Source: Candidatus Zhuqueibacterota bacterium (GTDB lineage: Bacteria > Zhuqueibacterota > Zhuqueibacteria > Residuimicrobiales > Krinioviventaceae). From it: 38,109 nucleotides of DNA. Of this stretch, positions 516 through 26,679 are shown piece after piece (within the stretch, counting starts at the first letter, position 1; every line of letters starts with the position of its first letter). The notes beneath the pieces were generated by a model. That model was not told the DNA's origin and ran no database searches. It saw only the letters and a list, made by a program, of their open reading frames with translations. The position numbers and the translations under genes were made by a program. The stretch is from assembly GCA_016934825.1 (NCBI GenBank), contig JAFGSB010000030.1, positions 1 through 38,109 of the forward strand. The letters are read 5' to 3'.

Positions 516-2663
516 TTACCCTTTGTTAACTGCTTCTTTAATTCTCTCCGGGGTCATTGGCAGTGTATATAACCTGACGCCAATAGCATCATAAACCGCA
601 TTGGCGATTACGGCGCCCATAGTGGTAATTGATGGTTCCCCGCATCCCTGCGGCGGCAATTCCGGATTATCAATTAGGACGGGTTCAATCTTTGGCACCC
701 AGGAGAATCGTGTTATCTCATAGGTGTCAAAATTCTCGTCAATTATTTGTCCCCCGTTAAATTTTATTTCTTCAGTCAGACAATAACCAAGCCCCATCGT
801 CACAGCACCTTCGATTTGCAGTTTTGCTCCCTGGGGATTGATGATCTCACCCATATCCTGAGCACATACTATACGTTTAACCTGAACATGCCCGGTATTC
901 TTATCGACGTCCACTTCCGCCATACTTACCACATAAGTATTGAGATAATTTGTACAGGCAATACCGTAACCTTTACCACTTGGGGATTTTACAAAAGTAT
1001 TGCCGAAATGATCGGCGGCTGCAGTTAAGACACGTTTCATTCGTTCATCCGATAAATTTTTCAGACGGAACGATAAAGGATCCATTCCTGCTGCCTGCGC
1101 CATTACATCCGTATGGGATTCCATTGCAAAAACGTTCGTATTGCTGCCGGGTCCGCGCCATGCGCCCGTACCAAACGGATGAGCGTCCGGTTCATTTCTT
1201 CCTGTACTTTTATATTTTACGATATAATGGGGAATATTGTAAATCGGTTCGGTACTTCTCGTTCCCGAGAATAAATGTTCAAAGTCCCAGAGTGTAATTA
1301 GTCCGTTCTTATTCAAACCGGTTTTAGCTTTGACAACGGCAGCCGGTCTGAAGGTGTTATAAAAAAATTCTTCTTTTCTGGTTAAGGCAATTTGCACGGG
1401 TCTGCCGGTTATTTTGGCCAGCCGGGCGGCCTCCTCAATATACAATCCAGATTTTTTACCGCCAAATCCGCCGCCTAAAAATATCTGCATCACACGCACT
1501 TTTTCAACCGGTATTCCTAATATCTCAGCCACTTCTTCCTGTATCCGAAAAGGTGTTTGCGAAGACACCCAAACCCTGACTTTATCTTTTCCGATATCAA
1601 CCAGTACAGTATGGGTTTCCATCGGGGAATGGGCGACATAGTGGTTGTAATAGGCGGCTTCAATCGACTGTGCGCTGTTGTTTTGTCCTGATTTGATATC
1701 ACCGTTTTCCGTCACTATGCGCTGTGAGGTGGCGGATTTTTCAAGATGTGTGAATATTGTTTTATTGTTTATTGTTTGTTCGGGATTATCAAATTCCGCT
1801 TTGATTGTTGTTAAAGCCCTTTCAGCTACATCCGGCTTTTCATGCAGTACGGCTACCAGGTCTTTCTCTTCAACAATGATGATCCCTTCAATTTTTTTCG
1901 CGGGACTTGTATCCACCGATACAAGTTTGGCATTGTGCGCAGGGGGGCGCAGAACCTTTGCATACAACATACCGGGTAACCTGATGTCACCGGTGTATTT
2001 GGCCTCCCCGGTTACTTTTTGCAGCGCATCGGTGCGAAAAGCAGGGGTGCCAGAAATTGTATGCTGCGAATAATGTTTAATGTTTACATTACCGCCAACC
2101 TGCCTTTCAATTCTTTTACCTTTAGTAAGCTGTGCGTAGGACACGTTTATATCGGGATTATCTTTAACTGAAATTATTCCGTCTTTCACCACGAGTTTAT
2201 TTTTGTCCGTTTTTAAACGAATAGCGGCAAGCTGGAATAAAATCGCCCTGGCCTTTGCTCCGGCTTCACGCAGGGGAGGTCCGAAATATTTTGTGCTGCG
2301 TGACCCAACTGTACCACTGTCCCATGGGCAAAGGTCGGTATCTCCCATAACCATATCAACAGACTTTAAAGGAACGTCCAGTTCTTCAGCCAGCATTTGC
2401 GCCAGAGAGGTAAAAATTCCCTGTCCCATTTCTATTTTTCCGGTATAACAGGTAACCCGACCATCCTCGCCGACCTTAAGATAGGCATTCAGGTCCTCGG
2501 GATATTCGCTGCCGCGTCTTTGCGCTTCGGCAGCGGGAACACCGGCCGTGATGAAAATGATAATACCGCCGCCCAAATGTTTAAGGAAGTCCCGACGGTC
2601 AAGTTTATATTCCGGAAGGATTTCATCCAGATCAGGTTCAAATAAATAATCGTCTTTTTTCAT
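516..2663 (-). CDS. Mo-hydroxylase large subunit, IorB type, Tat-exported
   Basis: Molybdopterin-binding subunit of a xanthine dehydrogenase-family hydroxylase, 715 residues from the chosen start. An N-terminal twin-arginine signal (DRRDFLK followed by a hydrophobic stretch ending near AAEAQ) indicates a periplasmic enzyme. As in isoquinoline 1-oxidoreductase beta subunits, a segment of the Mo-binding fold (GQGIFTSLAQMLAEEL) comes before the hammerhead domain (KVTGEAKYTGDIRLPG). GGGFGGKK and the GCGEP motif with the likely catalytic Glu676 are present. The start at 2663 is preferred over an upstream in-frame start at 2738. It has an AAGGGGG ribosome site and overlaps the preceding gene's stop by 4 bases (ATGA), which implies translational coupling. 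The substrate cannot be read from sequence; aldehydes or N-heteroaromatics are typical. No cytochrome partner gene is adjacent. Confidence 0.9.
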   Translation of the reverse strand: MKKDDYLFEPDLDEILPEYKLDRRDFLKHLGGGIIIFITAGVPAAEAQRRGSEYPEDLNAYLKVGEDGRVTCYTGKIEMGQGIFTSLAQMLAEELDVPLKSVDMVMGDTDLCPWDSGTVGSRSTKYFGPPLREAGAKARAILFQLAAIRLKTDKNKLVVKDGIISVKDNPDINVSYAQLTKGKRIERQVGGNVNIKHYSQHTISGTPAFRTDALQKVTGEAKYTGDIRLPGMLYAKVLRPPAHNAKLVSVDTSPAKKIEGIIIVEEKDLVAVLHEKPDVAERALTTIKAEFDNPEQTINNKTIFTHLEKSATSQRIVTENGDIKSGQNNSAQSIEAAYYNHYVAHSPMETHTVLVDIGKDKVRVWVSSQTPFRIQEEVAEILGIPVEKVRVMQIFLGGGFGGKKSGLYIEEAARLAKITGRPVQIALTRKEEFFYNTFRPAAVVKAKTGLNKNGLITLWDFEHLFSGTRSTEPIYNIPHYIVKYKSTGRNEPDAHPFGTGAWRGPGSNTNVFAMESHTDVMAQAAGMDPLSFRLKNLSDERMKRVLTAAADHFGNTFVKSPSGKGYGIACTNYLNTYVVSMAEVDVDKNTGHVQVKRIVCAQDMGEIINPQGAKLQIEGAVTMGLGYCLTEEIKFNGGQIIDENFDTYEITRFSWVPKIEPVLIDNPELPPQGCGEPSITTMGAVIANAVYDAIGVRLYTLPMTPERIKEAVNKG

Positions 2664-3139
2664 TTTACGCCCCCTTTCATTTCTTGAGCCGCGGCAAGAA
2701 TGGCGGCGACGATCCTTTGATGTGAACCGCAGCGGCAAAAAACATCTTCCATTCCGTCTATTACCTCGGTTCTGGTCGGTTGTGGATTCTCATTTAGCAA
2801 ACTCAGGGCGCTGAGGATCATTCCCGGAGTACAAAAACCGCATTGCAGGGCCTCATGCTCAATAAAAGCTTTTTGCAGTGGATGCAGGACGCCATTTTGA
2901 GTCAATCCTTCAATAGTTATTACTTTTTTCCCCGCCACATTTTTAACAGGCAGTTGACAGGAGCGTTCGGCCTGGTTGTTGACAAGCACGGTACATGCAC
3001 CGCAAAATCCTTCACCACATGCGTATTTGGTTCCTGTTAATTGTAAATCGGTCCGCAGTACCCACAAAAGAGAACGTTCCGGATCGACTTCGATATTTAT
3101 CGATTTCCCATTGAGATTAAATTTTATGGTTTCTTGCAT
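2660..3139 (-). CDS. Mo-hydroxylase 2Fe-2S subunit, IorA type
   Basis: Small electron-transfer subunit of 159 residues, the usual length for this family. The plant-type [2Fe-2S] ligands are Cys41, Cys46, Cys49 and Cys61 (CGEGFCGAC...C). The second cluster uses Cys100, Cys103, Cys135 and Cys137 (CGFCTPG...CRC). It has no signal peptide of its own. By analogy with IorAB and similar enzymes it would fold in the cytoplasm and be carried through the Tat pore by the signal on the large subunit, whose start codon overlaps this stop. There is no FAD subunit in this pair, so electrons probably leave from the Fe-S clusters to a periplasmic or membrane acceptor that is not encoded here. Confidence 0.92.
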   Translation of the reverse strand: MQETIKFNLNGKSINIEVDPERSLLWVLRTDLQLTGTKYACGEGFCGACTVLVNNQAERSCQLPVKNVAGKKVITIEGLTQNGVLHPLQKAFIEHEALQCGFCTPGMILSALSLLNENPQPTRTEVIDGMEDVFCRCGSHQRIVAAILAAAQEMKGGVK

Positions 3140-3297: not shown

Positions 3298-4854
3298 TTA
3301 ATGACCGTATTCACAAAACCGGGGAATATTGAGAATGTTTGCCGCGGCGGCAATTGTGACGCCGTAAAATATGACCGGTTTCCCGGTATCCAGAAAGGAG
3401 GACAGAGTCCCGTTGACCACTGTTGAGCCGGTGGCGAAAATAATATCGCACCATTCGACGGCCCCTGGAGTTTCTTCGGGTGATTCTATGATAATTCCAT
3501 ATTTCGACGAACCGATATTGTCTGGGTCCATGTCTACACATCTAACCGGATGATTTTTTTTCAGGTATTCCAGGAAACGGGGTTGTAATCCGACCAACAA
3601 AACCTTGTCACCCGGCTTGAACAAACGGTCAATTTCTTTTGCGCATTTTTTTGGCTCCTGGTCGCGGCAATGCACGGTACGATCGCATAAACCCAGATAC
3701 CGGTAAATGGCGTTTAGGGCAGCGATCAGGTCCGCACGGTTGCGGTTCGTGTCCGGCGGCAGTTCCAATATCTGCTTCAGGGTATAATTTTTATCTCCAT
3801 AGGAATCGGAAAACGCATGTCCTTTAATTTTTTCAAATTCGGCCTGAACAATAGTTTCCTTGCCTTTGAGTATGGGATAATCTTTATCTTCGGGCGTACC
3901 TATCGCCTGTTCCGATGTGATTGGCTTGCATCGAATGGTGATTGCATTGTCAAACAAATTATGTTTCTCGACCTGTTGGTAAAGGGCTTTTCTTAATTTT
4001 TGGTAAACAGACTGATTTTTTTTCATTTTAGTATTCCGGGTTAATGTATAGGTCATATCCTTAGATGCCGTTTCGTTCTTTTTTAATAATTTATATAAAT
4101 CCGACAGGGATGAGTAAAGAAATTTAATGCCCATTATCAAAATAAAGAGACCGAAGGCTTGTTTGAGTAATTTGTCCGGAAGATTTGAGGATATTAAAAC
4201 ACCAATAACCGCTCCGGTCAGGGCAGGAGGGATGAGTTTTTTTACGGAATTAATTTTTATGGCTTTGAGTTTTTGGTGAACGAGGGATGCCGACAGTGTC
4301 AGAAGAAACATAGTGGCCAGTGAGGTGGTTATGGCTTCATGCATCGGATAGTTCAAAATGTATACCAGAAAGGGGACAATAATCAAACCGCAGCCCACAC
4401 CCAGTAATGTTGAAATTATGCCGGTTAACAGTCCAAAGATTATCAGGAACAAAAATTCATACCCGTAAATCAAATCGTGCAGATAATGGAATATCATAGA
4501 TGTTGCATCATATACCTTCAGCATTCGTAAACCCACAGTTATAAGAAAAACCGCAAACAGAGTGTACAGCCATTTACCTTCATATTTACGAACAAATATA
4601 CCACCGATTATAGTACCGAATACCGCAAAAATAACCAATGTCAGGTAATTGATAAAATGAAAATGCTTAATAATCAGCAGGTGGCTTGCTGCCCCCACTA
4701 ATGTTATGGGTACTATTGTTGCCAAAGAAGTGCTTGCCGCTTTGCGAAACGGATAGTGAAATCCATATACCAGGGACGGTACAAGTATGGAGCCGCCGCC
4801 GACTCCAAGACCGGCGCTTAAAATTCCAATGCAAAACACTACAAAATATAACAC
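3298..4854 (-). CDS. TSUP/TauE permease fused to DUF4213/DUF364-like domain
   Basis: A 518-residue two-part protein. Residues about 1-255 form a typical TSUP (TauE/SafE) permease with two homologous halves of hydrophobic helices, each opening with a GxGGGxxxxP-like motif (GLGVGGGSILVPSLVYG; LLGVGCGLIIVPFLVYI). After a charged linker, residues about 285-518 resemble the DUF4213-DUF364 putative heavy-metal-chelation family. Evidence for this is IGTPEDKDYPILKGKE, GHAFSDSYGD, and a Rossmann-like C-terminal part with ATGSTVVNGTL, YGVTIAAAA and a terminal RFCEYGH. The start is a GTG preceded by AGGTGG. It lies 158 bases upstream of the IorA-like gene on the same strand and may belong to the same unit. 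TSUP members move sulfite, sulfonates, thiosulfate or other anions; a sulfur or metal role for cofactor maturation is only an inference. The permease call is firm, the C-terminal family call moderately so. Confidence 0.82.
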   Translation of the reverse strand: MLYFVVFCIGILSAGLGVGGGSILVPSLVYGFHYPFRKAASTSLATIVPITLVGAASHLLIIKHFHFINYLTLVIFAVFGTIIGGIFVRKYEGKWLYTLFAVFLITVGLRMLKVYDATSMIFHYLHDLIYGYEFLFLIIFGLLTGIISTLLGVGCGLIIVPFLVYILNYPMHEAITTSLATMFLLTLSASLVHQKLKAIKINSVKKLIPPALTGAVIGVLISSNLPDKLLKQAFGLFILIMGIKFLYSSLSDLYKLLKKNETASKDMTYTLTRNTKMKKNQSVYQKLRKALYQQVEKHNLFDNAITIRCKPITSEQAIGTPEDKDYPILKGKETIVQAEFEKIKGHAFSDSYGDKNYTLKQILELPPDTNRNRADLIAALNAIYRYLGLCDRTVHCRDQEPKKCAKEIDRLFKPGDKVLLVGLQPRFLEYLKKNHPVRCVDMDPDNIGSSKYGIIIESPEETPGAVEWCDIIFATGSTVVNGTLSSFLDTGKPVIFYGVTIAAAANILNIPRFCEYGH

Positions 4855-5271
4855 AGTTCCACCTGTATCTGTTTATTAACTCGTTGATTTGTTTATTTTG
4901 ATCGAATCAAGTCCGAATAATTGCCCCCAAATACTGATACACTTAACAGCGTACAGAAAATGAATACTCCATTTGAATTATAAGATCATTTTGTCCAATC
5001 GGGAAACCTGATGGCCTTTTAAATTTGTTCGGCGCCCAATATTGCAGAATAGCGTAAAATGCAAAGAAAAATGTTAAAAATGAAATATGAATTAAAAAGT
5101 ACTTGCAAAACATCGGGACGAGTAATATATTTTAATTATAGATATTTATTATTTCGATTGACCAAGGGAAAAAATATCAGTCAACTGCATGTAGATGAAA
5201 TAACAGATTTTATTATATTATAATCAATTGATACCCGGAAAGCAATTAAAATTTATAAATGGAGTTGTCAT
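4855..5271. promoter_or_regulatory. divergent intergenic region between two Mo-hydroxylase units
   Basis: About 417 AT-rich bases separate the minus-strand TSUP-fusion/IorAB genes from the plus-strand PaoABC-like operon, so promoters for both directions should lie here. I cannot pick a convincing -35/-10 pair. The plus-strand operon start at 5272 is preceded by GGAG about eight bases upstream. No ORF or RNA motif is recognised. Confidence 0.45.
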
Positions 5272-5895
5272 ATGGGTGATTCAAATCAAAAATCGGGAAT
5301 GTCCCGCCGTAACTTTATAAAAGGGTTAGGCGGCGGTATTGCCGGTGCGACGGCCATTGCAGCCAAAACCGGCAAAGCCGCGCAAGAGGGACCACATGGA
5401 GCTATGGTTGTAGGTGCCGGGCCGGTAAAAATTTCCTTGTTAATCAATTCAAAGAAGCATGAACTGACCGTTGATCCCCGTACTACTTTACTGGATGCAT
5501 TGAGAAATGATCTGGATTATACAGGAACAAAGCGGGTATGCAATAAAGGTCAATGCGGTGCATGCACGGTTATTCTAAATGGTAAAACCATCCTGGCCTG
5601 CAGCATGCTGGCCCTGGATGCCGATGGTGCATCTGTCGAGACGATAGAAGGTCTTGCACAGGGGAACAAACTGCATCCACTTCAGGAAGCGTTTGTTAAA
5701 CATGATGCCATGCAATGTGGATTTTGTACACCGGGTTTCATCATGTCCTGCGTCTCTTTACTGAGGGAAAACAATCAACCTACACTTGATGAGATCAAGA
5801 ACGGTGTTGCCGGCAACCTCTGCCGATGTGGTACATACCCCAACATTTTTAAGGCAGTCGAAGATGCGGCAACAACCATAAAGAAAGGAGGGTGA
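5272..5895 (+). CDS. Mo-hydroxylase 2Fe-2S subunit with Tat signal, PaoA type
   Basis: 207 residues. A twin-arginine signal at residues 11-17 (SRRNFIK) is followed by a Gly/Ala-rich hydrophobic segment, then a standard two-cluster ferredoxin subunit. Cluster ligands are Cys90, Cys95, Cys98 and Cys110, then Cys149, Cys152, Cys184 and Cys186. Carrying the Tat signal on the Fe-S subunit matches the periplasmic aldehyde oxidoreductase PaoABC (YagTSR) of E. coli and is the opposite of the neighbouring IorAB-like pair. It is the first gene of a three-gene operon; the next ATG begins one base after its stop. The product should be exported as a folded complex with the Mo and FAD subunits. Confidence 0.92.
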   Translation: MGDSNQKSGMSRRNFIKGLGGGIAGATAIAAKTGKAAQEGPHGAMVVGAGPVKISLLINSKKHELTVDPRTTLLDALRNDLDYTGTKRVCNKGQCGACTVILNGKTILACSMLALDADGASVETIEGLAQGNKLHPLQEAFVKHDAMQCGFCTPGFIMSCVSLLRENNQPTLDEIKNGVAGNLCRCGTYPNIFKAVEDAATTIKKGG

Positions 5896-5896
5896 A

Positions 5897-8005
5897 ATGA
5901 CCGGTTGGAAAAAATTAAACGATATGACCTATCTCGGTAAATCGTATACCCGTGTAGACGGTCCCGATAAAGTAACGGGGCGCGCCAAATATACATACGA
6001 TCTGAAATTCCCGGGTATGTTATACGGACGTATCCTGCGGAGTCCTCACCCCCATGCAAAAATCATATCTATTGACGCTTCCCGGGTTGTCAATATGCCG
6101 GGTGTAAAAGCAGTTCTCACCGATATCAAAGATGAAGTTTTTTTTGTAGGTGATGATGTCGCGGCCGTTGCGGCCGAAACGGAAGAAATCGCGAATGAAG
6201 CTTTATTAAGATTCAAAGTGGAATATCAGGTCCTTCCGTTCACGGTCCGGGAAGAACAGGCCATGCTTGATGATGCCCCCAAAGTTTTCAGCAACAGGGA
6301 TAACAATATCGGTTCTACCCAGGACCGAACCGAAGGCGATGTTGAAAAAGGCTTTCAGGAGGCCGATGTTGTTGTTGAACAAACTTATCATATAAATGTT
6401 CAGGTGCATAACCCGCTGGAAGTTCACGGTTGTATTGTGAAATGGCAGGATGATGAGTTATATATGTGGGATTCTACTCAGGCCGTTCATGGAGAGCGCA
6501 GCGCAATGGCCAGACATTTTAAAATTCCCGAAAATAAGGTACATGTCATTTCGCATCATATGGGAGGCGGCTTTGGCAGTAAGTTGGGTATGAAAAGTTT
6601 TCATATTATTTGTGCAAATCTGGCCAAAAAAGCCGCTGTGCCCGTAAAATTGATGCTTGATCGGGAAGAGCAGTTCCTGGCCGTTGGCAACCGTCCGTCC
6701 TCTATTCAGAAAATCAAAATTGGCGCTAAAAAGGACGGTACCCTGACCGCGTTTCAACTCGATTCCTTCGGTACCGCAGGGATTGGCGGCGGAGCCGGTG
6801 TACCACAACCGTACATTTACCAATTCCCGAATTACAAGGTTAATCACAAAGATGTATTTATTAACGCCGGAGCCGGTGCTCCGATGCGCGCTCCGGGACA
6901 TCCGCAGGCCAATTTTGCCATGGAATCAATTATGGATGAATTGGCGGAAAAACTTGGTATGGATCCACTGGAATTGCGAATAAAAAATGATCCCAATAAA
7001 ACCCGGCAGCAGGAATATCTGATTGGCGCAAAGCAGTTTGGCTGGGACAAACGGCTCAAGTCCGGTAGTCAGAAAGGAAAAATTGTTAAAGGTATGGGAC
7101 TCGGGTCCGGAAGATGGAGTGGAGGAGGCAACAGGGAAACCAAAGCCAATGTAAATATATATCCTGATGGCGCGGTTGATGTTAAAATAGGTACCCAGGA
7201 TATTGGTACCGGTGCACGGACAATTGTTGCGGCTGTAGTTGCGGAAGAACTGGAACTGGATTTAAAGGATGTACTGCCCCTGATCGGTAAAAGCGATTAC
7301 CCCTGGGCCCCGGCCAGTGGCGGAAGTACGACCACCCCTTCGATTTCCCCGACCGTGAAATTGGCTGCAGAAAAAGCCAAAAATTCATTAATTGTCAGAG
7401 TTGCGGATGAATGGAAAGTTACACCTGACCAGGTGATATACTCTAAAAAGACTTTTACCAGCAAAGACGGAGCACAATCATTGTCCTGGCAGGAAGCCTG
7501 TGAATTACTGAGAGCGCCCATATCCGAGATGGAAAAATGGAACGAAGGGTTATCGGATTCGGGAACTGCCGGCTGTCAGTTTGTTGAAGTGGAAGTGGAT
7601 AAAGAAACCGGTCATGTCAAGGTTACACGGATGATCGGCGTTCATGATTGCGGACTGGTTGTCAATATGCTGACCACTAAAAACCAGATCCAGGGCGGCA
7701 TGATTGGTGAAATTGGATACGTTACCATGGAAAACCGGTTGCTCGATGCCGATACGGGTATAATGCCCAATGCGGATATGGAAAATTACAAGATACCGGG
7801 CGCCTTGGAAATGCCCGATTTTAACATTACCATGTTTGACGAGTCGGAACGGGGTGTGATCGGAGTTGGTGAACCACCGGCCATACCGGGTGTCGGCGCA
7901 ATTGCAAACGCAATTGCCAATGCGATTGGCGCACATTTTTATGAGACACCGATAACTCCGGACAAGGTACTAATGGCGATTCAAGGAAAGGAGGGCAAGT
8001 CATGA
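5897..8005 (+). CDS. Mo-hydroxylase molybdopterin subunit, PaoC type
   Basis: 702 residues, close to PaoC length, without its own signal peptide. The a/b-hammerhead domain opens the protein (KVTGRAKYTYDLKFPG, residues 26-40). GGGFGSK lies at 223-229 in the first Mo-binding domain. A Moco-binding stretch contains APMRAPGHPQANFAMES. The C-terminal GVGEP motif places the likely base-catalyst glutamate at Glu659. The gene starts one base after the Fe-S subunit stop, with AAAGGAGGG as a strong ribosome site, and its stop overlaps the FAD subunit start by four bases. It would bind a cytosine-dinucleotide or related molybdopterin supplied by the XdhC/MocA-type proteins encoded nearby. Substrates of such enzymes are commonly aldehydes; the actual substrate is unknown. 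Confidence 0.92.
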   Translation: MTGWKKLNDMTYLGKSYTRVDGPDKVTGRAKYTYDLKFPGMLYGRILRSPHPHAKIISIDASRVVNMPGVKAVLTDIKDEVFFVGDDVAAVAAETEEIANEALLRFKVEYQVLPFTVREEQAMLDDAPKVFSNRDNNIGSTQDRTEGDVEKGFQEADVVVEQTYHINVQVHNPLEVHGCIVKWQDDELYMWDSTQAVHGERSAMARHFKIPENKVHVISHHMGGGFGSKLGMKSFHIICANLAKKAAVPVKLMLDREEQFLAVGNRPSSIQKIKIGAKKDGTLTAFQLDSFGTAGIGGGAGVPQPYIYQFPNYKVNHKDVFINAGAGAPMRAPGHPQANFAMESIMDELAEKLGMDPLELRIKNDPNKTRQQEYLIGAKQFGWDKRLKSGSQKGKIVKGMGLGSGRWSGGGNRETKANVNIYPDGAVDVKIGTQDIGTGARTIVAAVVAEELELDLKDVLPLIGKSDYPWAPASGGSTTTPSISPTVKLAAEKAKNSLIVRVADEWKVTPDQVIYSKKTFTSKDGAQSLSWQEACELLRAPISEMEKWNEGLSDSGTAGCQFVEVEVDKETGHVKVTRMIGVHDCGLVVNMLTTKNQIQGGMIGEIGYVTMENRLLDADTGIMPNADMENYKIPGALEMPDFNITMFDESERGVIGVGEPPAIPGVGAIANAIANAIGAHFYETPITPDKVLMAIQGKEGKS

Positions 8006-8979
8006 AAGAATTTCAGTATATCTACCCCAAAAATTCTCAATCAGTACCCCTGATTTTGGGAGAATATAATGGCAAGGCTCTTTTATATGCCGGCGGTACC
8101 GACGCCCTGGCAAGAATGAAAGAAGGCATAAACCGGCCGGAGCAGGTTGTGAATCTCAAAGCCGTTGAGGAACTGAATTATATAAAAGAAGATTCAGACG
8201 GACTCAACATCGGCGCTACAACCCCGCTGGTGGATATTGTGAACAGTAAAGTTGCACAGACCTACGGCGGATTATCCCGTGCAGTTGAAACCGTTGCAAC
8301 CATTCAATTGCGGAATATGGGTACCCTTGGCGGTAACCTGTGCCAGAGACCGCGATGCTGGTATTTCCGCAGCAGGCATTTCCACTGCATTCGCAAGGGC
8401 GGAGATGTATGTTTTGCTGTTAGCGGAAACAACAAATACCATGCGATTTTGGGCGGCTCATCGTGCTATATTGTTTACCCGTCCGATGTAGCCCCCATGT
8501 TGATCACGTTACAGGCCAGCGTCGAAATACTCGGGCCCAAAGGTTCGCGTATGGTTCCGCTTGAGGACTTTTATATTCTGCCGAAAGTGGACCCGACCCG
8601 TGAGAATATTCTCCAACCGGATGAAATAGTGACCAGGGTTTTTGTCCCCAAAAGCGCGAAACAGGTAAAAAGCATTTATTTAAAATTCCGGGAACGTGAC
8701 TCGTTTGATTTTGCGATGGTTAGTGTGGCGGTTTCGGCAAAGGTTTCAGGTAATAAATTGTCCGATCTGAAAATCGCAATGGGCGGTGTTGCCCCTGTTC
8801 CCTGGCGGGCGAAAAAAGCGAAAATGGTGCTGAACGGCAATACCGTTTCCGACGAACTCCTGAAAAAAGCCGGGGAAGCGGAACTGGAAAACGCCGAACC
8901 TCTGGAACAGAATGAATATAAAATAACGTTGACAAAGAACCTGCTCAAGCGGGCAGTTGGTGAATTATTGGCCTTATAA
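8002..8979 (+). CDS. Mo-hydroxylase FAD subunit with 4Fe-4S loop, PaoB type
   Basis: 325-residue FAD-binding subunit of the CoxM/XdhB family. FAD contacts are visible at AGGTD (30-34) and GTLGGNL (107-113), followed by the CO dehydrogenase flavoprotein C-terminal domain. Between residues 114 and 137 it has four cysteines (Cys114, Cys119, Cys129, Cys137) in CQRPRCWYFR...C...GGDVC. This is the insertion that binds a [4Fe-4S] cluster in PaoB and 4-hydroxybenzoyl-CoA reductase beta subunits. It is therefore an intact family feature and not a frameshift. The ATG overlaps the Mo-subunit stop (ATGA). With no signal peptide it would be co-exported on the PaoA-type Tat signal. Confidence 0.92.
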   Translation: MKEFQYIYPKNSQSVPLILGEYNGKALLYAGGTDALARMKEGINRPEQVVNLKAVEELNYIKEDSDGLNIGATTPLVDIVNSKVAQTYGGLSRAVETVATIQLRNMGTLGGNLCQRPRCWYFRSRHFHCIRKGGDVCFAVSGNNKYHAILGGSSCYIVYPSDVAPMLITLQASVEILGPKGSRMVPLEDFYILPKVDPTRENILQPDEIVTRVFVPKSAKQVKSIYLKFRERDSFDFAMVSVAVSAKVSGNKLSDLKIAMGGVAPVPWRAKKAKMVLNGNTVSDELLKKAGEAELENAEPLEQNEYKITLTKNLLKRAVGELLAL

Positions 8980-9251: not shown

Positions 9252-9698
9252 TCATTCTGTTATCAATTCTATGGAATCACCGGGTTTGGCAATCCCTCCA
9301 TGTAAAACTTTAGCGAAAATTCCTTCCGTCGGCATAATACACTCACCGGTCTGCTGCTTGATGGCGCATCCGTGATGACATTCTTTGCCGATCTGTGTTA
9401 TTTTTAATAATATATCGCCACCGATACGGATAGTGTATCCGACTACCGCATATTTAAAATCAAGATTGCGGGTAATAATATTCTCGGCAAAAGCGCCCTG
9501 TCGTAACTCCGGTATTTGTTTTTTTAATCGATCAATACTTTCACCGGCAAGCAGTGAGACCTGCCGGTGCCAATTCCCGGCATGGGCGTCGTCCTTAATT
9601 CCGTGTCCCGCAACAAACTCGGCTTCATCGATCGGGATTTTCACGGTCCCTTTCCCGGTGCTGACGCATATGGCTTCAATGTATCCGTTTTTTATCAT
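9252..9698 (-). CDS. MOSC-domain protein
   Basis: 148-residue stand-alone MOSC domain (MOCO sulfurase C-terminal fold), the compact form often found beside moaC/mogA genes. Typical elements are the early VKIPIDEAEFVAGHGIKDDAHAG segment, ENIITRNLDF, and the conserved cysteine region CHHGCAIKQQTGECIMPTEGIF with the closing GGIAKPGDSIEL. MOSC proteins handle sulfur or the molybdenum cofactor itself; in a locus devoted to Mo hydroxylases, which need a terminal sulfido ligand, a role in cofactor sulfuration, carriage or delivery is plausible but unproven. It is the last gene of the operon. Its ATG overlaps the moeA stop by four bases and its stop abuts the terminator. Confidence 0.88.
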   Translation of the reverse strand: MIKNGYIEAICVSTGKGTVKIPIDEAEFVAGHGIKDDAHAGNWHRQVSLLAGESIDRLKKQIPELRQGAFAENIITRNLDFKYAVVGYTIRIGGDILLKITQIGKECHHGCAIKQQTGECIMPTEGIFAKVLHGGIAKPGDSIELITE

Positions 9699-10912
9699 AA
9701 GTCCCAGGGGTAAAGTGTTACTGTTACTTTATTGTTCTGTACTATGGTTTGACCCGGTTCAACCAGTATAAAACCATGGGCCTGGTCGATTGATGTCAGC
9801 ATATGGGAATCCTGCTTTGCAAATGGACGGGCAACGGTTTTGTTGTTTTGTGTGAGTAATTGCACACGTAAGTACACGGTCCGGTTTTCCTCATTGGTAA
9901 ATGATTTACTCAATACGGCTTTAACTTTTTTGTGTTCAAATGTTTTCCCTGCCATTTGCCTTAATATGGGGTGTATATAAAATGCAAAACTGTTCAGGGC
10001 GGAAACCATATTGCCGGGAAGTCCGAACAATAAAGTATTGTCTTTTTTGGCAACATATAAGGGTTTGCCCGGTTTTTGCCGAACCCCCCAGAACAGTTTT
10101 TTAAAACCCGCATCCTGCGCGGCCGGCTTGACCAGATCGTGCGGGCCCATCGATACGCCCCCGCTTACAATGACCAGGTCCGATACATCCGCCGCTTTGT
10201 TTATACCCTGCCGGACCGCATTGATATTGTCATCGGTTCGGGTATGAAAAACATTTTTCGCGTTCGAGGCATGAATCATAGAGCTCAGCATGATGGTGTT
10301 GGCGTCCCGGATTTGCCCGGGCTCCGGTTTCAGATCATGAGGGATTAACTCGGACCCGGTAACCACCAGTGAAACCCGCGGGGGTAAAATGACTTTTATC
10401 GATAATATACCCTGTGACGCCAGCAATCCCAGACAACCGGGTGTTAATATCGTACCCGTTTTGCACAATACGGCGCCGCTTTCAAATTCCGCACCGGCCG
10501 GACGTATAAACTGTCCTTTGCGGGTGATACGGGTGATAACAACACGGTCATTGTTTTGTACCGTATGCTCTACGGGTATAACAGTATCCGTGCCGTCCGG
10601 CAAAACCGCGCCGGTGTTGATTTGTACGGCTTGTCCAGTTTCAACATGTTGTCTGAACGGTAATCCGGCGATACTCTCTCCGATAATATGCAGAGTCACA
10701 GACATTTTTTCCCCTGTTTTGGAGACATCACTCCATTTTACGGCAAAACCGTCCATGGCGCTGTTGGTAAACAACGGTGAAGCTTCACGCGCCAACACAT
10801 CCTGAGCAACAACCAGTCCGGAGGTCAGTTCAAGCGTGAGCGCATCGGTTTGTATCGGCGGAATATTTTGCTGAATTATTTTTACCGCTTCTTGTATTGA
10901 AATTAAATCCAT
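9695..10912 (-). CDS. moeA: molybdopterin molybdenumtransferase MoeA
   Basis: 405 residues, the normal length for MoeA, which inserts molybdate into adenylylated molybdopterin in the cytoplasm. The four-domain layout is visible: the N-terminal helical segment (ALTLELTSGLVVAQDVLA, FTNSAMDGFAV), the INTGAVLPDGTDTVIPVEHT segment, the MogA-like catalytic domain with VVTGSELI and SGGVSMGPHD, and LFGLPGNMVSALNSF before the beta-barrel C-terminal domain. It lies 19 bases after the MoaC-MoaB fusion and its stop overlaps the MOSC gene start, so it is in the middle of the cofactor operon. Confidence 0.96.
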   Translation of the reverse strand: MDLISIQEAVKIIQQNIPPIQTDALTLELTSGLVVAQDVLAREASPLFTNSAMDGFAVKWSDVSKTGEKMSVTLHIIGESIAGLPFRQHVETGQAVQINTGAVLPDGTDTVIPVEHTVQNNDRVVITRITRKGQFIRPAGAEFESGAVLCKTGTILTPGCLGLLASQGILSIKVILPPRVSLVVTGSELIPHDLKPEPGQIRDANTIMLSSMIHASNAKNVFHTRTDDNINAVRQGINKAADVSDLVIVSGGVSMGPHDLVKPAAQDAGFKKLFWGVRQKPGKPLYVAKKDNTLLFGLPGNMVSALNSFAFYIHPILRQMAGKTFEHKKVKAVLSKSFTNEENRTVYLRVQLLTQNNKTVARPFAKQDSHMLTSIDQAHGFILVEPGQTIVQNNKVTVTLYPWDL

Positions 10913-10931
10913 TTTTTCTCAATTCTCTGTA

Positions 10932-11840
10932 TTAGTGACCTTCTCCCCGGATCATTAGCAATGCATGTGTCAAGCCCGGAAACAGTGATTGAATACTCTG
11001 CATAGCGCCCTTTTCGCTGCCGGGCAGGTTGATTATCAGGGTGTTTTTACGTTTTCCGCATACCTGGCGCGAAAGCATTGCGTAAGGTGTTCGGTCTTTG
11101 CCGTAGGATCTGAGCGCTTCGGCAATGCCGGGGATCTCTTTATCGATTACGGCCAGCGTTGCTTCCGGAGTGATATCTTTTGGCCCCAGTCCGCTGCCGC
11201 CGGCTGTGAATATCATGTCCAGTTTATCCGAATCCGCCAATTCAGTTAATTTCGATTCGATTTTTCCCCGGTCGTCCGGCAGGACGTCGTAAACCGGCAC
11301 CCGGAAACCCTGCTGCTGCAGGAAAGTTACCAGCGCTTTGCCTGACGAATCCGTCCGCTGACCGGCGAATGTGGAATCGGATATGACCAGAACACCGCAG
11401 CGGATATTCTGCGCTTCCGGTTCCCTGTAATCACTCCATCCGCCGGATTTTTCAACCAGCCGGATATCGCCCAGATGTAAGTCGTCATCGAGGGGTTTCA
11501 GCATATCATAGATATTGAGCAGAGCCGCGGATACAGCCGTCAGGGCTTCCATTTCCACACCGGTTTTCCAAACGGTACGGATTTCCGCCAGTACGCGAAT
11601 ACGGTCGTTTTGCGGTTCGACCGTCACTTCCACCCAATCCAGCGGAATCGGGTGGCAAAAAACCATCAGCTCCGCAGTCTTTTTCGCGGCCAATATACCT
11701 GCAGCGCGTGCCACCTGGATGACATCGCCTTTGGGTACGTTATTGTCGATGACCCGCTGTACAATTTCCGGCCGGGCAAACAAAAAACCTTCGGCACGCG
11801 CATAACGCAAGGTATTGAATTTTTTACTGACATCAATCAT
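10932..11840 (-). CDS. moaCB: MoaC-MoaB/MogA fusion (bifunctional Moco synthesis)
   Basis: 302-residue fusion. Residues 1-145 are MoaC, which with MoaA converts GTP to cyclic pyranopterin monophosphate; CHPIPL (62-67) and KTGVEMEALTAVSAALLNIYDMLK (92-115) are its signatures. Residues about 147-302 are a MogA/MoaB-type molybdopterin adenylyltransferase, with GVLVISDS, GGSGLGPKDITPEAT (214-228) and the late LPGSEKG. Such MoaC-MoaB fusions are known in several phyla. The fusion joins two steps that are not consecutive, because MPT synthase (MoaD/MoaE) acts between them. Those genes are absent here and must lie elsewhere. Its ATG overlaps the stop of the MOT1-type transporter. Confidence 0.95.
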   Translation of the reverse strand: MIDVSKKFNTLRYARAEGFLFARPEIVQRVIDNNVPKGDVIQVARAAGILAAKKTAELMVFCHPIPLDWVEVTVEPQNDRIRVLAEIRTVWKTGVEMEALTAVSAALLNIYDMLKPLDDDLHLGDIRLVEKSGGWSDYREPEAQNIRCGVLVISDSTFAGQRTDSSGKALVTFLQQQGFRVPVYDVLPDDRGKIESKLTELADSDKLDMIFTAGGSGLGPKDITPEATLAVIDKEIPGIAEALRSYGKDRTPYAMLSRQVCGKRKNTLIINLPGSEKGAMQSIQSLFPGLTHALLMIRGEGH

Positions 11841-12994
11841 GTTTTGCCTGATTTCTTAATAACAAAATTTAATATGAATTCAACAACAAAACCGGCTATC
11901 AGGGCGATAAACAGGTTTCTTGTAAAATAAGAGATCAAACCAACCGTCAGGGCGGTGATGTATTCGATATAATGATGTAACCGGCGAATAAGTATTATTA
12001 AACCGAAACTGGTAATAACCAAAAGCGCACCCAGTATGGGTACGGGTATGTAAAAGAGGAAACCGGACAATGGTTTGATTATGGAGAATAATACCAACAA
12101 GCCGCCGATGATGATGGTGGTACCGCCGGTTTTCCCGCCGAATTTGGCATGCGCGGCAATACCCCCGGCGCCATGACATATTGGAAAGCCGCCCAGTAAT
12201 CCGATAATGACGTCGCCTGTTCCGATTGATAAACTCAGCCGCGAGGGATTCACACGTTTTGCCTGTTCTTTCCAGAAAACGTGGCAGGCGTCGTTGGCGG
12301 CATAAACGGCATTGCCCAGGGTCAACGGCAGTTGCGGGATTATCAGATAAATAAATGCCGGGATCAGAAATGTAAAATCGGGTAATTGAGGATAAATAAC
12401 CTGACCGAATGTTCCGGTTGTGATATCCGTATTTCCGGTAACCAGCGTATACGCAATACCGAGTAGGATCATTATCAGACCGGCGGGTTGTTGTTTCCAG
12501 AGCTGGAATACGGATAATAATATCACCGCCAGCAACAGAAGAATAATATTAATAAATAATGAGCCGGAATCCTGGTGGATATACAAACCGTGGTCCAGTA
12601 CCAGGTCTATTGCCTTATGCAGTAATATCAGACCGATTCCCACCTGCACGCCGCGTATCAGGGCGGGACTGAATACTTTTTCAAGCCAGCGTATAGCGCC
12701 CGTAAGGGACAAAAGTATCAGCAATACCCCGTAAAAAAATGACGTGGATGCGAGCTGCGCAACGCTAAATCCACCGGCAATGGCTATGACGGCCATAGCT
12801 TTAAGGGGTTGTATGGCAACCGGGACCCTGTAAAACCAGCCGGTTATGATATAGGCCGCTCCCCAGAGGAAAAACAATCGCTGCGGGGAAAAATGGTTAA
12901 ATAATACAAGAACGAAGGCCAGCGGTAACATTGTACCCAGGTCACCAATCGCGCCGGACCATTCGGACAATCCGAATCTGTTTTTCAAATTCAT
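11837..12994 (-). CDS. MOT1-type sulfate/molybdate transporter
   Basis: 385-residue polytopic inner-membrane protein with about ten to twelve hydrophobic segments, resembling the MOT1 family (putative sulfate/molybdate transporters, SulP relatives). Diagnostic features are the N-terminal EWSGAIGDLGTMLPLA motif and the paired VPVAIQPLKAMAVIAIAGG motif, plus a second-half copy, SIGTGDVIIGLLGGFPICHGAGGIAAHAKFGGKTGG. Placement between moaA and moaCB, with four-base overlaps on both sides, strongly favours molybdate as the substrate. It would replace a ModABC importer, of which there is no sign in the window. Confidence 0.92.
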   Translation of the reverse strand: MNLKNRFGLSEWSGAIGDLGTMLPLAFVLVLFNHFSPQRLFFLWGAAYIITGWFYRVPVAIQPLKAMAVIAIAGGFSVAQLASTSFFYGVLLILLSLTGAIRWLEKVFSPALIRGVQVGIGLILLHKAIDLVLDHGLYIHQDSGSLFINIILLLLAVILLSVFQLWKQQPAGLIMILLGIAYTLVTGNTDITTGTFGQVIYPQLPDFTFLIPAFIYLIIPQLPLTLGNAVYAANDACHVFWKEQAKRVNPSRLSLSIGTGDVIIGLLGGFPICHGAGGIAAHAKFGGKTGGTTIIIGGLLVLFSIIKPLSGFLFYIPVPILGALLVITSFGLIILIRRLHHYIEYITALTVGLISYFTRNLFIALIAGFVVEFILNFVIKKSGKT

Positions 12995-14001
12995 CCTCCT
13001 ATATCCACCATATCGGCGATTGACAAAGCCGCGCAGGCGTTCTGTGCCGCGTTTCCATCCTGGAAACGGTGCTGCGCCGCTGTATATATTCTGTTGGCGA
13101 TCTCTACATTATCCTTGCCCTGCCTGATCATATCGATCACAGAGATTACACCGCCGTCATAAAGGCAGAATTTTAGCTGACCTCGAGCTGTAACGCGCAT
13201 CCGGTTGCAGGTCTCACAAAAAGTTCTGGAATCCCCGGCTATTATTCCGATTGTTCCCCGAAAGGAGGGGACCGCAAAACGTCTTGCGGTTGTGTTTTCG
13301 TTTTCAAGCATGGATAGTTTCGGATAATGATATTTCAGGATTTCTTCCAGGACTTTGGCGGTATAATTGGGCGGCTTATTTTGATTACTGGTTCGGCTGA
13401 TGGCCATGTGTTCAATAAACCTGACTTCCACCGGCAGCTTTTGCGCCAGAGCGGCAAGGCTTAACAGTTCGGATACCGGCATGTCGTCAAGCACAACCGT
13501 ATTGATCTTTACCGGTATATCTTTTGCCAGCAATTCGTGCAGGTTTTGTAAAACCTGGTCGAGCCTGTTTACACCGGTCAGCCGGTAATAACGTTCAGGA
13601 TCAAGCGAGTCCAGGCTCAGGTTGATCCCGGAAATATTGCTCTGTTTTAAATCTTTTATCCAGGGACTGATCAGCACGCCGTTGCTGGTAATATAGAGCG
13701 ACAGGGACGGGTATTTTCCCCTGATCGTATAAATAAAATCCTGTAAACCGGATCGTATAAAGGGTTCTCCACCGGTGAGCCGTAATTTATTGATGCCCAG
13801 TTCACATGTGAATATTTCCACAATACGCAAGAGTTCGGACCATGACAGCCGTTCCGCTTTTGAATTTATTAGAATTTGGGAATAAGGTTTGCAGTAGGTA
13901 CAATGTAAATTACACTGGTCGGTAACCGATAATCGTAAATAGTTCAGCTTTCTGCCAAAATTATCCGTTAAAGAAGAGGTTTTTTTTACTTCGACTTTCA
14001 T
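12991..14001 (-). CDS. moaA: GTP 3',8-cyclase MoaA
   Basis: 336-residue radical SAM enzyme for the first step of molybdenum cofactor synthesis. The N-terminal SAM cluster is C30-x3-C34-x2-C37 (CNLHCTYCKP). LRLTGGEPFIRSGL is the SAM-binding GGE motif. The C-terminal substrate cluster is CETCNRMRVTARGQLKFC (C-x2-C-x13-C), and the protein ends in the conserved Gly-Gly tail (VDIGG). Length and motifs are complete. The gene begins 76 bases after the nucleotidyltransferase stop and its own stop overlaps the transporter start. The product acts with the MoaC half of the downstream fusion. Confidence 0.97.
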   Translation of the reverse strand: MKVEVKKTSSLTDNFGRKLNYLRLSVTDQCNLHCTYCKPYSQILINSKAERLSWSELLRIVEIFTCELGINKLRLTGGEPFIRSGLQDFIYTIRGKYPSLSLYITSNGVLISPWIKDLKQSNISGINLSLDSLDPERYYRLTGVNRLDQVLQNLHELLAKDIPVKINTVVLDDMPVSELLSLAALAQKLPVEVRFIEHMAISRTSNQNKPPNYTAKVLEEILKYHYPKLSMLENENTTARRFAVPSFRGTIGIIAGDSRTFCETCNRMRVTARGQLKFCLYDGGVISVIDMIRQGKDNVEIANRIYTAAQHRFQDGNAAQNACAALSIADMVDIGG

Positions 14002-14077
14002 TTGTTCTTAATTGTTGAATAATCACTGGTTTTGTTTAATTTATATTTTAAGAAAATAGAGAAAACCGGCCAAGAAT

Positions 14078-14680
14078 TCAAGAAAAATTATCGGGCGGCA
14101 TAAACCGGGATTGAATTTTGTGTAAATCCCGGGGCGTATCCGCATCGAATAAAATGCCCTCCGATGCCAAATTAATCCGTAATGTGGAATCGGTAAAAAT
14201 GTCACGCAGATCACGGGCGGTTTGCGTGGGCTTCATCTGTAAAATTTTTTCCAGCACTCTTGATGAATATAACACCGGGTGCCCTGATTGACCTCCATAT
14301 TGCGGGATGATAATATCACTATTGGTATTTGTAAAGGCGGTAGTTAATTCTTTGATCCATTCGGCCCTTATATGTGGCTGATCGCCCAAACAGACAATTA
14401 CGGCCCGACAGGATGAAGGCAAAGCCTTTACACCCGTCTGCAATGATGAAAATTGTCCATGTTGATAATGGTCGTTGATGACAAATTTGGCTTTTATGCC
14501 GCTTTGATGGCGTATCAGGTCCGGTTTATAACCCAGAACCACCACAATCGGATGTATACCTGCAGCGGTTAATTGTGCTTCAATATACTGAAGAAAGGTT
14601 TTGCCGCCGATTTTGAGAACGGGTTTGAGCTTGCCCATACGCCGGGATTCTCCGGCGGCTAAAATAATACCTGCAATCAT
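14078..14680 (-). CDS. MocA/MobA-like molybdopterin nucleotidyltransferase
   Basis: 200-residue nucleotidyltransferase with the NTP-binding signature ILAAGESRRMGKLKP (residues 6-20), a metal-binding GDQPH motif near 105, and GHPVLYSSRVLEKI. The family includes MocA (adds CMP to molybdopterin for xanthine dehydrogenase-type enzymes) and MobA (adds GMP for DMSO-reductase-type enzymes). The direct coupling to xdhC, with overlapping ATGA, and the two hydroxylases nearby favour a MocA-type cytidylyltransferase, giving the MCD cofactor used by PaoABC-like enzymes. The sequence alone does not fix CTP against GTP specificity. Confidence 0.9.
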   Translation of the reverse strand: MIAGIILAAGESRRMGKLKPVLKIGGKTFLQYIEAQLTAAGIHPIVVVLGYKPDLIRHQSGIKAKFVINDHYQHGQFSSLQTGVKALPSSCRAVIVCLGDQPHIRAEWIKELTTAFTNTNSDIIIPQYGGQSGHPVLYSSRVLEKILQMKPTQTARDLRDIFTDSTLRINLASEGILFDADTPRDLHKIQSRFMPPDNFS

Positions 14681-15495
14681 TTTATGTCCTGTGCAGGATT
14701 CGGTTTTTGAATTTCGGTCACATTGTTTTTTACGGCGATCAATTCGGCGGCTATGGAAACGGCAATTTCCGTCGGCGTATCGCCGCCGATGTCCAGCCCG
14801 ATTGGACTGTGTAATTTTTTAAACAATTCCGGTGATATACCCTTGTCGATAAGATTTTGCACTGTCTGTTTTACCTTGCGGCGGCTGCCGATCATGCCGA
14901 GATAGTGAAACGGCTTTTGAATGCAATACTCCAGGACTTCCTGGTCGTATGCATGACCATGTGTGACGATAACGATGGAGGTCTGTTCCGTGAAAACCAA
15001 CTCATCAAGAGCTTTCGGGTATGGTTTTGCCAGAATGTTTGATACGGCGGGGAACCCCTCCGGGTTTGCATATTCCGGCCTGTTGTCGATTATAGTAATG
15101 GCAAAACCTGCTCCTTCAAGGATGCGGCATAGAGCGTGGCCGATATGCCCTGCGCCGAAAATGTACAGCGGCTTTGGCGGATTCATGGGTTCGAAAAACA
15201 GGGACATGTGGCCGCCGCATAACATTTCCGCGTCCGTTTCCAGCTCATATTGTATGAATTGCGGATCCGTGTTTTGCTTTAATGATAACGCAAACTCTAT
15301 GGCTTTTTTTTCTATGGCGCCCCCGCCTATGGTACCGCTGATGCGCCCGTCCGAATAGACCAGCATGCGGGCGCCGGCTTTTTGAGGCGCCGAGCCTTTT
15401 ACCTCTATTACGGTTACCATGACTGTCGGAACAGCTTTTTTTTGTGCGTTTAATAGTTCGGAGAAGACATTGTTTTGAGAAGCAGAAATAGACAT
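14677..15495 (-). CDS. xdhC: XdhC-family Mo hydroxylase maturation factor
   Basis: 272 residues with the XdhC/CoxI N-terminal domain (VKGSAPQKAGARMLV, GTIGGGAIE, and the conserved MLCGGHMSLFFEP around Cys93) followed by a Rossmann domain (FGAGHIGHAL, residues 113-122; IVTHGHAYDQEVL). XdhC proteins bind the molybdenum cofactor, promote its sulfuration with a cysteine desulfurase, and insert it into xanthine dehydrogenase-family apoenzymes; PaoD has this role for PaoABC. It is the first gene of the Moco operon, with an AAAAGGAT ribosome site. One protein may serve both hydroxylases, since no second XdhC is in the window. Confidence 0.94.
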   Translation of the reverse strand: MSISASQNNVFSELLNAQKKAVPTVMVTVIEVKGSAPQKAGARMLVYSDGRISGTIGGGAIEKKAIEFALSLKQNTDPQFIQYELETDAEMLCGGHMSLFFEPMNPPKPLYIFGAGHIGHALCRILEGAGFAITIIDNRPEYANPEGFPAVSNILAKPYPKALDELVFTEQTSIVIVTHGHAYDQEVLEYCIQKPFHYLGMIGSRRKVKQTVQNLIDKGISPELFKKLHSPIGLDIGGDTPTEIAVSIAAELIAVKNNVTEIQKPNPAQDIK

Positions 15496-19974: not shown

Positions 19975-20931
19975 TTATTTTGGCGTCTCATTGAATGTGC
20001 GCATGATTTGAAGAAATCCCGGCCCTAACATAACGATCATCAAAGCAGGCAGGATGAACAACACGAGCGGAAAAAGCATTTTAATACCGGCTTTTGCCGC
20101 CTGTTCTTCCACACGTTGACGAATTCTCGTTCGTAAAGAATCCGAATGTGTTCGCAGGGTCTGAGCAATACTGCTGCCCATACGGTCGGCCATAATTATA
20201 GCGCTGACAAGTATTCTCAGGTCCTGAATTTTGTTCCGATCGCTGAGATTCCGTAAGGCCTTTTCACGGGTAAAACCTGTTCTCATTTCCTGGTTGACCA
20301 ATATAAATTCTTCACTGAGTTGCTTACAACGCATATGTAGTTCCTGCCCAACCTTTAGAATAGCTGCATTCAGCCCCATACCGGCTTCCACACAGGTAAC
20401 GAGCAGGTCAAGGGCGTCTGCCAAACTGCTGCCGATTTGTTCTTGTCTTTTTCGGATTTGCGCGTTTAAAAATGCTTGAGGCAACAGATAGCCCATAAGG
20501 GTCATTAATGGAATCATTGTAAAGAAAGAACCTGCCATGCGGTTGCTTATGATTCCCAAATATATATACAGGACCGTAAAAACAATGGCGCTCGATATTC
20601 TTATTCCTATATAATTACGGAGATGCTGTTCTTTACGATAACCGGCATACAAAAGTGATTTTCTTATTTTTGATAGTTTTTCTTCATTGGTTGAATATAA
20701 TTGACCAACACTGGTTATTATTTTTTCTATTTTGGGAGATATTTTTTTATCTTTTTCGATTGCAGGTTTGGTAATATCTATGGCTTTGGGCTGATATCGG
20801 GATTGGTAACTTTTTATATCATGTAGTTTGTTGGTATAGTTATCCGTTTTCTGCCTTAAAACGTTCATAATGGTAACAGAAAACATGAATACTGTGATAA
20901 AGATTGAACCGAATATAATATAAGTGGACAT
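19975..20931 (-). CDS. tadC: Tad pilus inner-membrane platform protein TadC
   Basis: 318 residues, type II secretion F-domain family. There is an N-terminal membrane segment (TYIIFGSIFITVFMFSVTIM), a cytoplasmic region, two central hydrophobic segments, and a C-terminal hairpin (MLFPLVLFILPALMIVMLGPGF). The T2SSF core is LADALDLLVTCVEAGMGLNAAILKV ... DLRILVSAIIMADRMGSSIAQTL. TadC pairs with TadB to form the inner-membrane base on which the CpaF ATPase acts. It starts seven bases after the tadB stop. Confidence 0.95.
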   Translation of the reverse strand: MSTYIIFGSIFITVFMFSVTIMNVLRQKTDNYTNKLHDIKSYQSRYQPKAIDITKPAIEKDKKISPKIEKIITSVGQLYSTNEEKLSKIRKSLLYAGYRKEQHLRNYIGIRISSAIVFTVLYIYLGIISNRMAGSFFTMIPLMTLMGYLLPQAFLNAQIRKRQEQIGSSLADALDLLVTCVEAGMGLNAAILKVGQELHMRCKQLSEEFILVNQEMRTGFTREKALRNLSDRNKIQDLRILVSAIIMADRMGSSIAQTLRTHSDSLRTRIRQRVEEQAAKAGIKMLFPLVLFILPALMIVMLGPGFLQIMRTFNETPK

Positions 20932-20938
20932 ATTAATC

Positions 20939-23349: not shown

Positions 23350-23357
23350 TTTTTTCT

Positions 23358-24551: not shown

Positions 24552-24569
24552 TAAATTATATACTTCTTT

Positions 24570-25532: not shown

Positions 25533-25551
25533 TTTAAGCTCATAAATTTTA

Positions 25552-26637: not shown

Positions 26638-26679
26638 TTGAATTCCTTTTTTTAAATCTGGCATTCATCATCACTATAA

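Follow-up and report, generated by a model that had tools for sequence, protein, structure and literature searches.

The protein analyzed here combines two described families. For DUF364, a probable metal-handling domain, the 2010 paper on the structure of Dhaf4260 described gene neighborhoods containing molybdenum, tungsten, vanadium and iron transport genes, and proposed that the domain is a chelator-related enzyme (PMC2954201). TSUP carriers, for their part, are generally assigned sulfur-containing molecules (PMC5840216). The known molybdenum transporters are ModABC, WtpABC, TupABC, MOT1 and MOT2, according to a 2018 survey of molybdenum use in which TauE is unmentioned and 278 of 3,683 molybdenum-using bacteria were without any known transporter (PMC6147048). 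Our full-text search of open-access papers found no report of a TSUP–DUF364 pair or fusion, and both the TSUP partner and the fusion appear to be new.

A TSUP carrier and a DUF364 domain share one open reading frame

The gene lies in a 38,109-nucleotide stretch of DNA from a Candidatus Zhuqueibacterota bacterium, hereafter the window. A first-pass annotation had described an uninterrupted frame running from two TSUP half-repeats into a DUF364-like domain; its coordinates proved exact, to which we add the strand of the gene, minus. The main features of the gene are:

3298..4854, minus strand: TSUP–DUF364 fusion gene, 518 aa, GTG start (single open frame with TauE and DUF364 profile matches)
4859..4864, minus strand: AGGTGG, a ribosome-binding-like site ending 4 nt 5' of the GTG (read by eye)
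4069..4854, minus strand: TSUP carrier half, aa 1–262 (PF01925 profile, all-helical AlphaFold2 model)
3988..4083, minus strand: linker, aa 258–289, with helix predicted on both sides
3301..3987, minus strand: DUF364-subfamily half, aa 290–518, with an enolase-N-like plus Rossmann-like fold (AlphaFold2, Foldseek)

The frame extends from the GTG at 4854 to the stop at 3298–3300 with no internal stops. By eye, none of the internal ATG codons in the linker has a ribosome-binding-like site upstream comparable to the AGGTGG that precedes the GTG; the simplest reading is therefore one polypeptide. Unfused DUF364 proteins begin, in the alignment, close to Met277 of the fusion. TauE and DUF364 were the only profile matches in the protein; the domains of known molybdenum uptake systems (ABC ATPase, permease and binding protein, and the MOT1 profile) were absent. 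Our analysis confirms that the fusion of a TSUP carrier with a DUF364 domain is real, on the basis of one metagenome-assembled genome.

For structure prediction the two halves were modelled separately, since in an alignment of the whole fusion the TSUP rows fell on DUF364 columns. Rows from the plasmid locus L094 (described below) were left out of the alignments behind the models.

The carrier half carries a clade-specific cysteine

A PF01925 search of the N-terminal half, proposed in the first-pass annotation, returned TauE with an E value of 4.8e-45 (154.5 bits against a cut-off of 32.6) in two stretches that amount to a complete carrier, the half-repeats covering approximately aa 1–112 and 137–257. 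The AlphaFold2 model of this half (262 aa) is all-helical, with a pLDDT of 90 and a pTM of 0.86; comparison of the model with solved structures gave no match (best E 0.13), and charge-based topology did not decide its membrane orientation. In its two half-repeats, glycine motifs and predicted all-helical fold, the protein resembles other TSUP/TauE–SafE members. It differs from them in being fused to a soluble domain, in being set among molybdenum genes rather than sulfur metabolism, and in one residue of the second repeat that is common only to the DUF364-paired clade:

4390..4392, minus strand: Cys155 in the repeat-2 glycine motif GVGCG, among the TSUP rows, seen only in the clade that pairs with the fusion's DUF364 clade

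This clade reads GVGCG or GIGCG at the motif. The cysteine is present in the fusion and in the TSUP proteins of loci L023, L025, L094 and L151, and not in ten other TSUP rows.

The DUF364 half belongs to a subfamily with invariant cysteine and histidine residues

The C-terminal half had been assigned to DUF4213/DUF364, and profile searches bore out the second part of that name only. PF04016 (DUF364) matched with an E value of 2.8e-11 and 43.7 bits against a cut-off of 23, over profile positions 8–98 of 147, and was found in all 45 rows of the subfamily (E <= 0.1). PF13938 (DUF4213) gave no match in the window protein at E <= 0.01; over the 45 rows, 5 reached E <= 0.1, the best at 0.005. The AlphaFold2 model of the C-terminal half is confident (pLDDT 94, pTM 0.90), and Foldseek matched it over its whole length to 3npg (E 5e-9, 236 columns, TM 0.54) and also to 3l5o (E 2e-6). 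Given this match, the modelled fold suggests that an N-terminal DUF4213-like domain is probably present, with a diverged sequence. The DUF364-like motifs singled out in the first-pass annotation (TGSTVVNGTL, YGVTIA and RFC) coincide with conserved columns of the subfamily. The half contains the following:

3352..3621, minus strand: PF04016 (DUF364) match, aa 412–501 (profile search, own-genome search)
3667..3672, minus strand: invariant His395–Cys396 in the motif T-[VI]-H-C (92 of 92 sequences)
3643..3645, minus strand: invariant Cys404 (92 of 92 sequences)
3313..3315, minus strand: invariant Cys514, near the C-terminus (92 of 92 sequences)

Profile–profile alignment of the subfamily with seven classical DUF4213–DUF364 proteins had a probability of 96.8%, and none of the seven has a conserved cysteine or histidine at the columns of His395, Cys396, Cys404 and Cys514. 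The TGST..NGT region of the subfamily aligns to the classical ITGT..N.T, with the N-terminal glycine/arginine loop lying outside that alignment; the classical pocket of Dhaf4260 comprises Gly37, Gly39, Arg42, Asn83, Gly129, Glu148, Thr174, Asp180 and Thr182. Thus the window protein shares with Dhaf4260 (3l5o) and PH1506 (3npg) a PF04016 match over cut-off, the fold of the entire C-terminal half and a gene location near molybdenum or tungsten transporters, as already noted for those proteins (PMC2954201). It differs from them in belonging to a subfamily with an invariant His-Cys and two further invariant cysteines, which the classical proteins compared do not have, and in not reaching the DUF4213 profile. 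The four residues may form one site. This Cys/His subfamily of DUF364 appears to be new. At nine loci (L033, L056, L074, L080, L092, L126, L135, L141 and L148) a gene of the Cys/His type stands in tandem with, or near, a classical DUF4213–DUF364 gene, which suggests complementary roles.

The fusion gene is set among molybdenum genes

The gene had been described as lying beside two Mo hydroxylases and a molybdenum cofactor (Moco) operon, and these are indeed its neighbors, at 516–3139 (minus), 5272–8979 (plus) and 9252–15495 (minus):

2660..3139, minus strand: Mo hydroxylase 1, 2Fe-2S subunit (PF01799, PF00111), on the same strand as the fusion and 158 nt downstream of it
516..2738, minus strand: Mo hydroxylase 1, Moco-binding large subunit (PF20256, PF02738, PF01315)
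5272..8979, plus strand: the three-subunit Mo hydroxylase 2 (2Fe-2S, Moco, FAD), beginning 417 nt from the fusion and pointing away from it
9252..15495, minus strand: Moco operon, with XdhC, MocA, MoaA, a MOT1-type carrier, MoaC-Mog, MoeA and MOSC
11837–12994: MOT1-type molybdate carrier, a separate gene within the Moco operon

The 158 nt between the fusion and Mo hydroxylase 1 yielded no terminator, and promoter and terminator scans of the region gave counts no higher than in shuffles. A riboswitch search near the fusion gene found none, the sole item being a tRNA at 129–202, and a phage match was sought and not found. The window also encodes a protein of 924 aa in which bacterial Ig-like (Big_1) domains are repeated (15794–18568) and a pilus gene cluster of the Tad/Flp type (19975–27546).

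In the host genome (G000; 5.39 Mb, 95% complete) DUF364 occurs once, and large subunits of Mo hydroxylases are encoded three times. It lacks ModA, and none of its three matches to the ModB profile comes near the cut-off; of the molybdate carriers tested, MOT1 alone was recognised.

The fusion is a singleton, and unfused TSUP–DUF364 pairs recur

The genome survey suggested by the first-pass annotation found the fusion in one genome: no second example occurred in the 81 other genomes of the phylum, in 1,072 genomes from three further phyla or in 71 loci from the genome collection. The annotation had also considered that the fusion might occur mostly in genomes lacking Mo hydroxylases, and the sole genome with it carries the three large subunits mentioned above. 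The three phyla searched were those of L025 (Omnitrophota), L023 (Planctomycetota) and L043 (Desulfobacterota, judged from its members), in which DUF364 genes occur in 11 of 334, 7 of 343 and 68 of 395 genomes, respectively. The loci opened from these searches contained no TSUP fusion, and in the unopened Desulfobacterota matches no open frame exceeds 391 aa, which leaves no room for a full TSUP carrier besides DUF364.

Long frames at L116, L119 and L126 had been suspected of being further TSUP fusions; none is, and L126 is a plain 241-aa gene. L116:838-2220 (G747, from the Planctomycetota search) encodes a NifU_N–DUF364 fusion (PF01592 1.8e-35, PF04016 2.1e-8). Like the window gene, it joins the DUF364 subfamily to another domain, but the partner there is an Fe-S scaffold domain and in the window a carrier. 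At L119:3-1514 (G515) a class-IV aminotransferase frame runs on into the DUF364 subfamily and is cut by the contig end, and at L091:7998-9152 the first half of the subfamily is followed in one frame by 4Fe-4S and P-loop stretches, either a fusion or a chimera.

Among the 82 genomes of the phylum, true homologues of the C-terminal half occur only in the window genome and in G010, where the gene is unfused; weak matches in G039, G047 and G059 are glycosyltransferases, not homologues. In the DUF364 tree the window copy falls in a 10-member group (support 100/98) together with four copies paired with TSUP genes of the same clade, the other five members having no adjacent TSUP gene in the stretch seen. 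The G010 copy sits elsewhere in the tree, outside this group, and the window copy was therefore probably acquired separately, as judged from the sequence tree.

The four same-clade pairs come from different phyla. A TSUP carrier of the fusion's clade (39–45% identity) adjoins DUF364 in L023 (Phycisphaerae), where one TAG separates the two genes, which share a frame; in L025 (Omnitrophota), where they overlap; in L094, a gammaproteobacterial plasmid (Dongshaea marina, NZ_CP028898.1), where they are convergent; and in L151 (Desulfobacterota), where the gene order is Mo-oxidoreductase, MoeA-like, TSUP (44–45%) and DUF364 (49%). Carriers of other TSUP clades adjoin DUF364 in L033, L061, L092, L105, L153 and L154. 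In the Omnitrophota loci L153, L154, L061 and L105 the DUF364 gene is followed by the other-clade TSUP gene, and some of these loci are near Mrp/MinD-type ATPases and a gene of the metallo-beta-lactamase fold. On the mobilizable L094 plasmid, DUF134, NifX-family, thioesterase, DUF364 and TSUP genes lie together near IS elements.

The DUF364 subfamily is tied to molybdenum genes

The subfamily is strongly tied to molybdenum genes, its members lying next to genes for molybdenum uptake and Moco across many bacterial phyla. With one fixed probe per family, a molybdenum-related gene was found in 25 of 31 DUF364 loci (each at least 14 kb, about 16 kb) and in 2 of 40 controls (stretches of 16.7 kb), a difference whose p value of 2e-11 is only nominal because fewer genomes are represented among the controls than among the case loci and some of the probes were drawn from the latter. 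These controls were taken from genomes met in the same searches, several from one genome. ModB was present in 18 of the 31 loci against 1 of the 40 controls, and MoeA-like genes in 7 against none. The immediate same-strand neighbors at 64 loci included ModA (12), MoeA-like (10), SsuA-type (7) and TSUP (4) genes, and ModABC is the commonest partner of the subfamily. In this genomic setting the window gene resembles ModABC, WtpABC, TupABC and MOT1; it differs from the three ABC systems in that its TSUP half is a carrier without ATPase or binding protein.

Where a TSUP gene adjoins DUF364, ModA, ModB and SsuA were absent (0 of 5 loci, against 40 of 65 others; p 0.012, with small numbers), the pattern expected of an exchangeable carrier. 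Two pair-bearing genomes, G082 and G084 (completeness unstated), have MoaC and a Mo hydroxylase; a search covering ModA, ModB (over cut-off) and MOT1 found none of these in either genome. A third pair-bearing genome, G1132, has ModAB.

The association is not exclusive. DUF364 lies by or near FeoB and/or DtxR-type genes in L036, L037, L053 and L152, so the subfamily is not tied to molybdenum alone, and at some loci NifX/Mrp genes take the place of Moco genes.

Possible roles of the fusion protein

The explanation that we favor, quite possible though short of probable, is that the gene merges into one polypeptide a conserved module, made up of a carrier and a Cys/His DUF364 protein, that acts in molybdenum supply. 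The TSUP half would take up an oxyanion, most likely molybdate, with tungstate or a thio-form as possible substrates; the tethered cytosolic DUF364 half would bind the oxyanion at its Cys/His residues on the inner face of the membrane and pass it to a molybdenum-insertion or maturation step (MoeA, XdhC) serving the adjacent Mo hydroxylases. The carrier would be exchangeable, an ABC transporter of the ModABC or SsuABC-like type in most relatives and a TSUP protein in some. We infer the substrate, the direction of import, the cytosolic orientation, the metal binding and the hand-over from the gene context and the conserved residues. This explanation has to be set against the MOT1-type carrier of G000 and the ModAB of G1132, with which neither genome has an obvious need for TSUP to take up molybdate. 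The sulfur substrates generally assigned to TSUP carriers, the FeoB/DtxR and NifX/Mrp loci and the failure of the TSUP model to match a solved structure also count against molybdenum. The idea in the first-pass annotation, a device for transport and capture in cofactor maturation, is supported in part: the DUF364 neighborhoods and the gene order in L151 strengthen it and narrow it towards molybdenum, while the association, with ModABC and MoeA-like genes, concerns molybdenum supply in general more than the Mo hydroxylases specifically.

The main rival to molybdenum supply, possible but on balance unlikely, is a supply of sulfur or selenium, in which TSUP would move a sulfur oxyanion, thiosulfate or a related compound, and DUF364 would hold molybdenum or sulfur and, with XdhC, make the terminal sulfido ligand of the Mo hydroxylases. 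TSUP carriers are usually assigned to sulfur compounds (PMC5840216), XdhC is encoded in the Moco operon of the window, and the motif cysteine is specific to the fusion's TSUP clade. Some relatives lie near YqeB/YqeC/YedE selenium-dependent Mo-hydroxylase genes, and the Omnitrophota pair stands in clusters of the NifX/Mrp type, a setting in which the Orange Protein carries a Mo-S-Cu cluster. However, this reading leaves unexplained the exchange with the molybdate carrier ModABC, the commonest neighbor of DUF364. An enzymatic role of the DUF364 half, as proposed in the Dhaf4260 paper, is improbable: the half would synthesize or hydrolyse a metal chelator resembling a pterin or flavin, and either this chelate or the metal would be moved by the carrier. 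The deep interdomain pocket of the solved relative and its similar gene neighborhoods (PMC2954201), the fold match to 3npg and 3l5o and the aminotransferase-IV–DUF364 open frame in G515 fit such an enzyme, but the invariant cysteines and histidine suggest direct ligation of metal or sulfur rather than a classical pocket alone.

We regard it as quite improbable that the fusion is incidental, or an assembly or consensus error, in which two adjacent genes lost the stop codon between them and the frame means no more than their pairing. There is a single instance among the genomes searched, the window comes from a metagenome-assembled genome, and in L023 one substitution in the TAG would be enough to join the genes; against this, the frame runs cleanly through a plausible helical linker behind one good ribosome site at the GTG, and the unfused pair recurs across phyla. 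The module itself survives even without a genuine fusion. Export or detoxification, with TSUP exporting excess sulfite or thiomolybdate and DUF364 as a cytosolic sensor or gate, is likewise quite improbable: the Pfam family name refers to sulfite export and a tethered soluble domain could gate a carrier, but the relatives are mostly paired with ABC importers (ModABC, SsuABC-like).

Returning to molybdenum supply, we consider the fusion protein a good candidate for a new kind of supply device. Some molybdenum-using bacteria were found to have none of the known transporters. A broader proposal, unlikely though conceivable, is that the GVGCG clade of TSUP is an unrecognised class of molybdate (or thiomolybdate or tungstate) carrier, with a cytosolic Cys/His molybdenum chaperone as its separate or fused partner, and that it explains some of the molybdenum users without a known transporter. 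The fate of molybdate between import and insertion is poorly defined, and a carrier and a Cys/His protein in one chain would tie both steps together. The named residues and small expressible constructs make the substrate and the Cys/His site directly testable. If true, molybdenum supply would provide a concrete biochemical hypothesis for DUF364, a domain whose structure was solved in 2010 and to which no function is assigned in the literature found.
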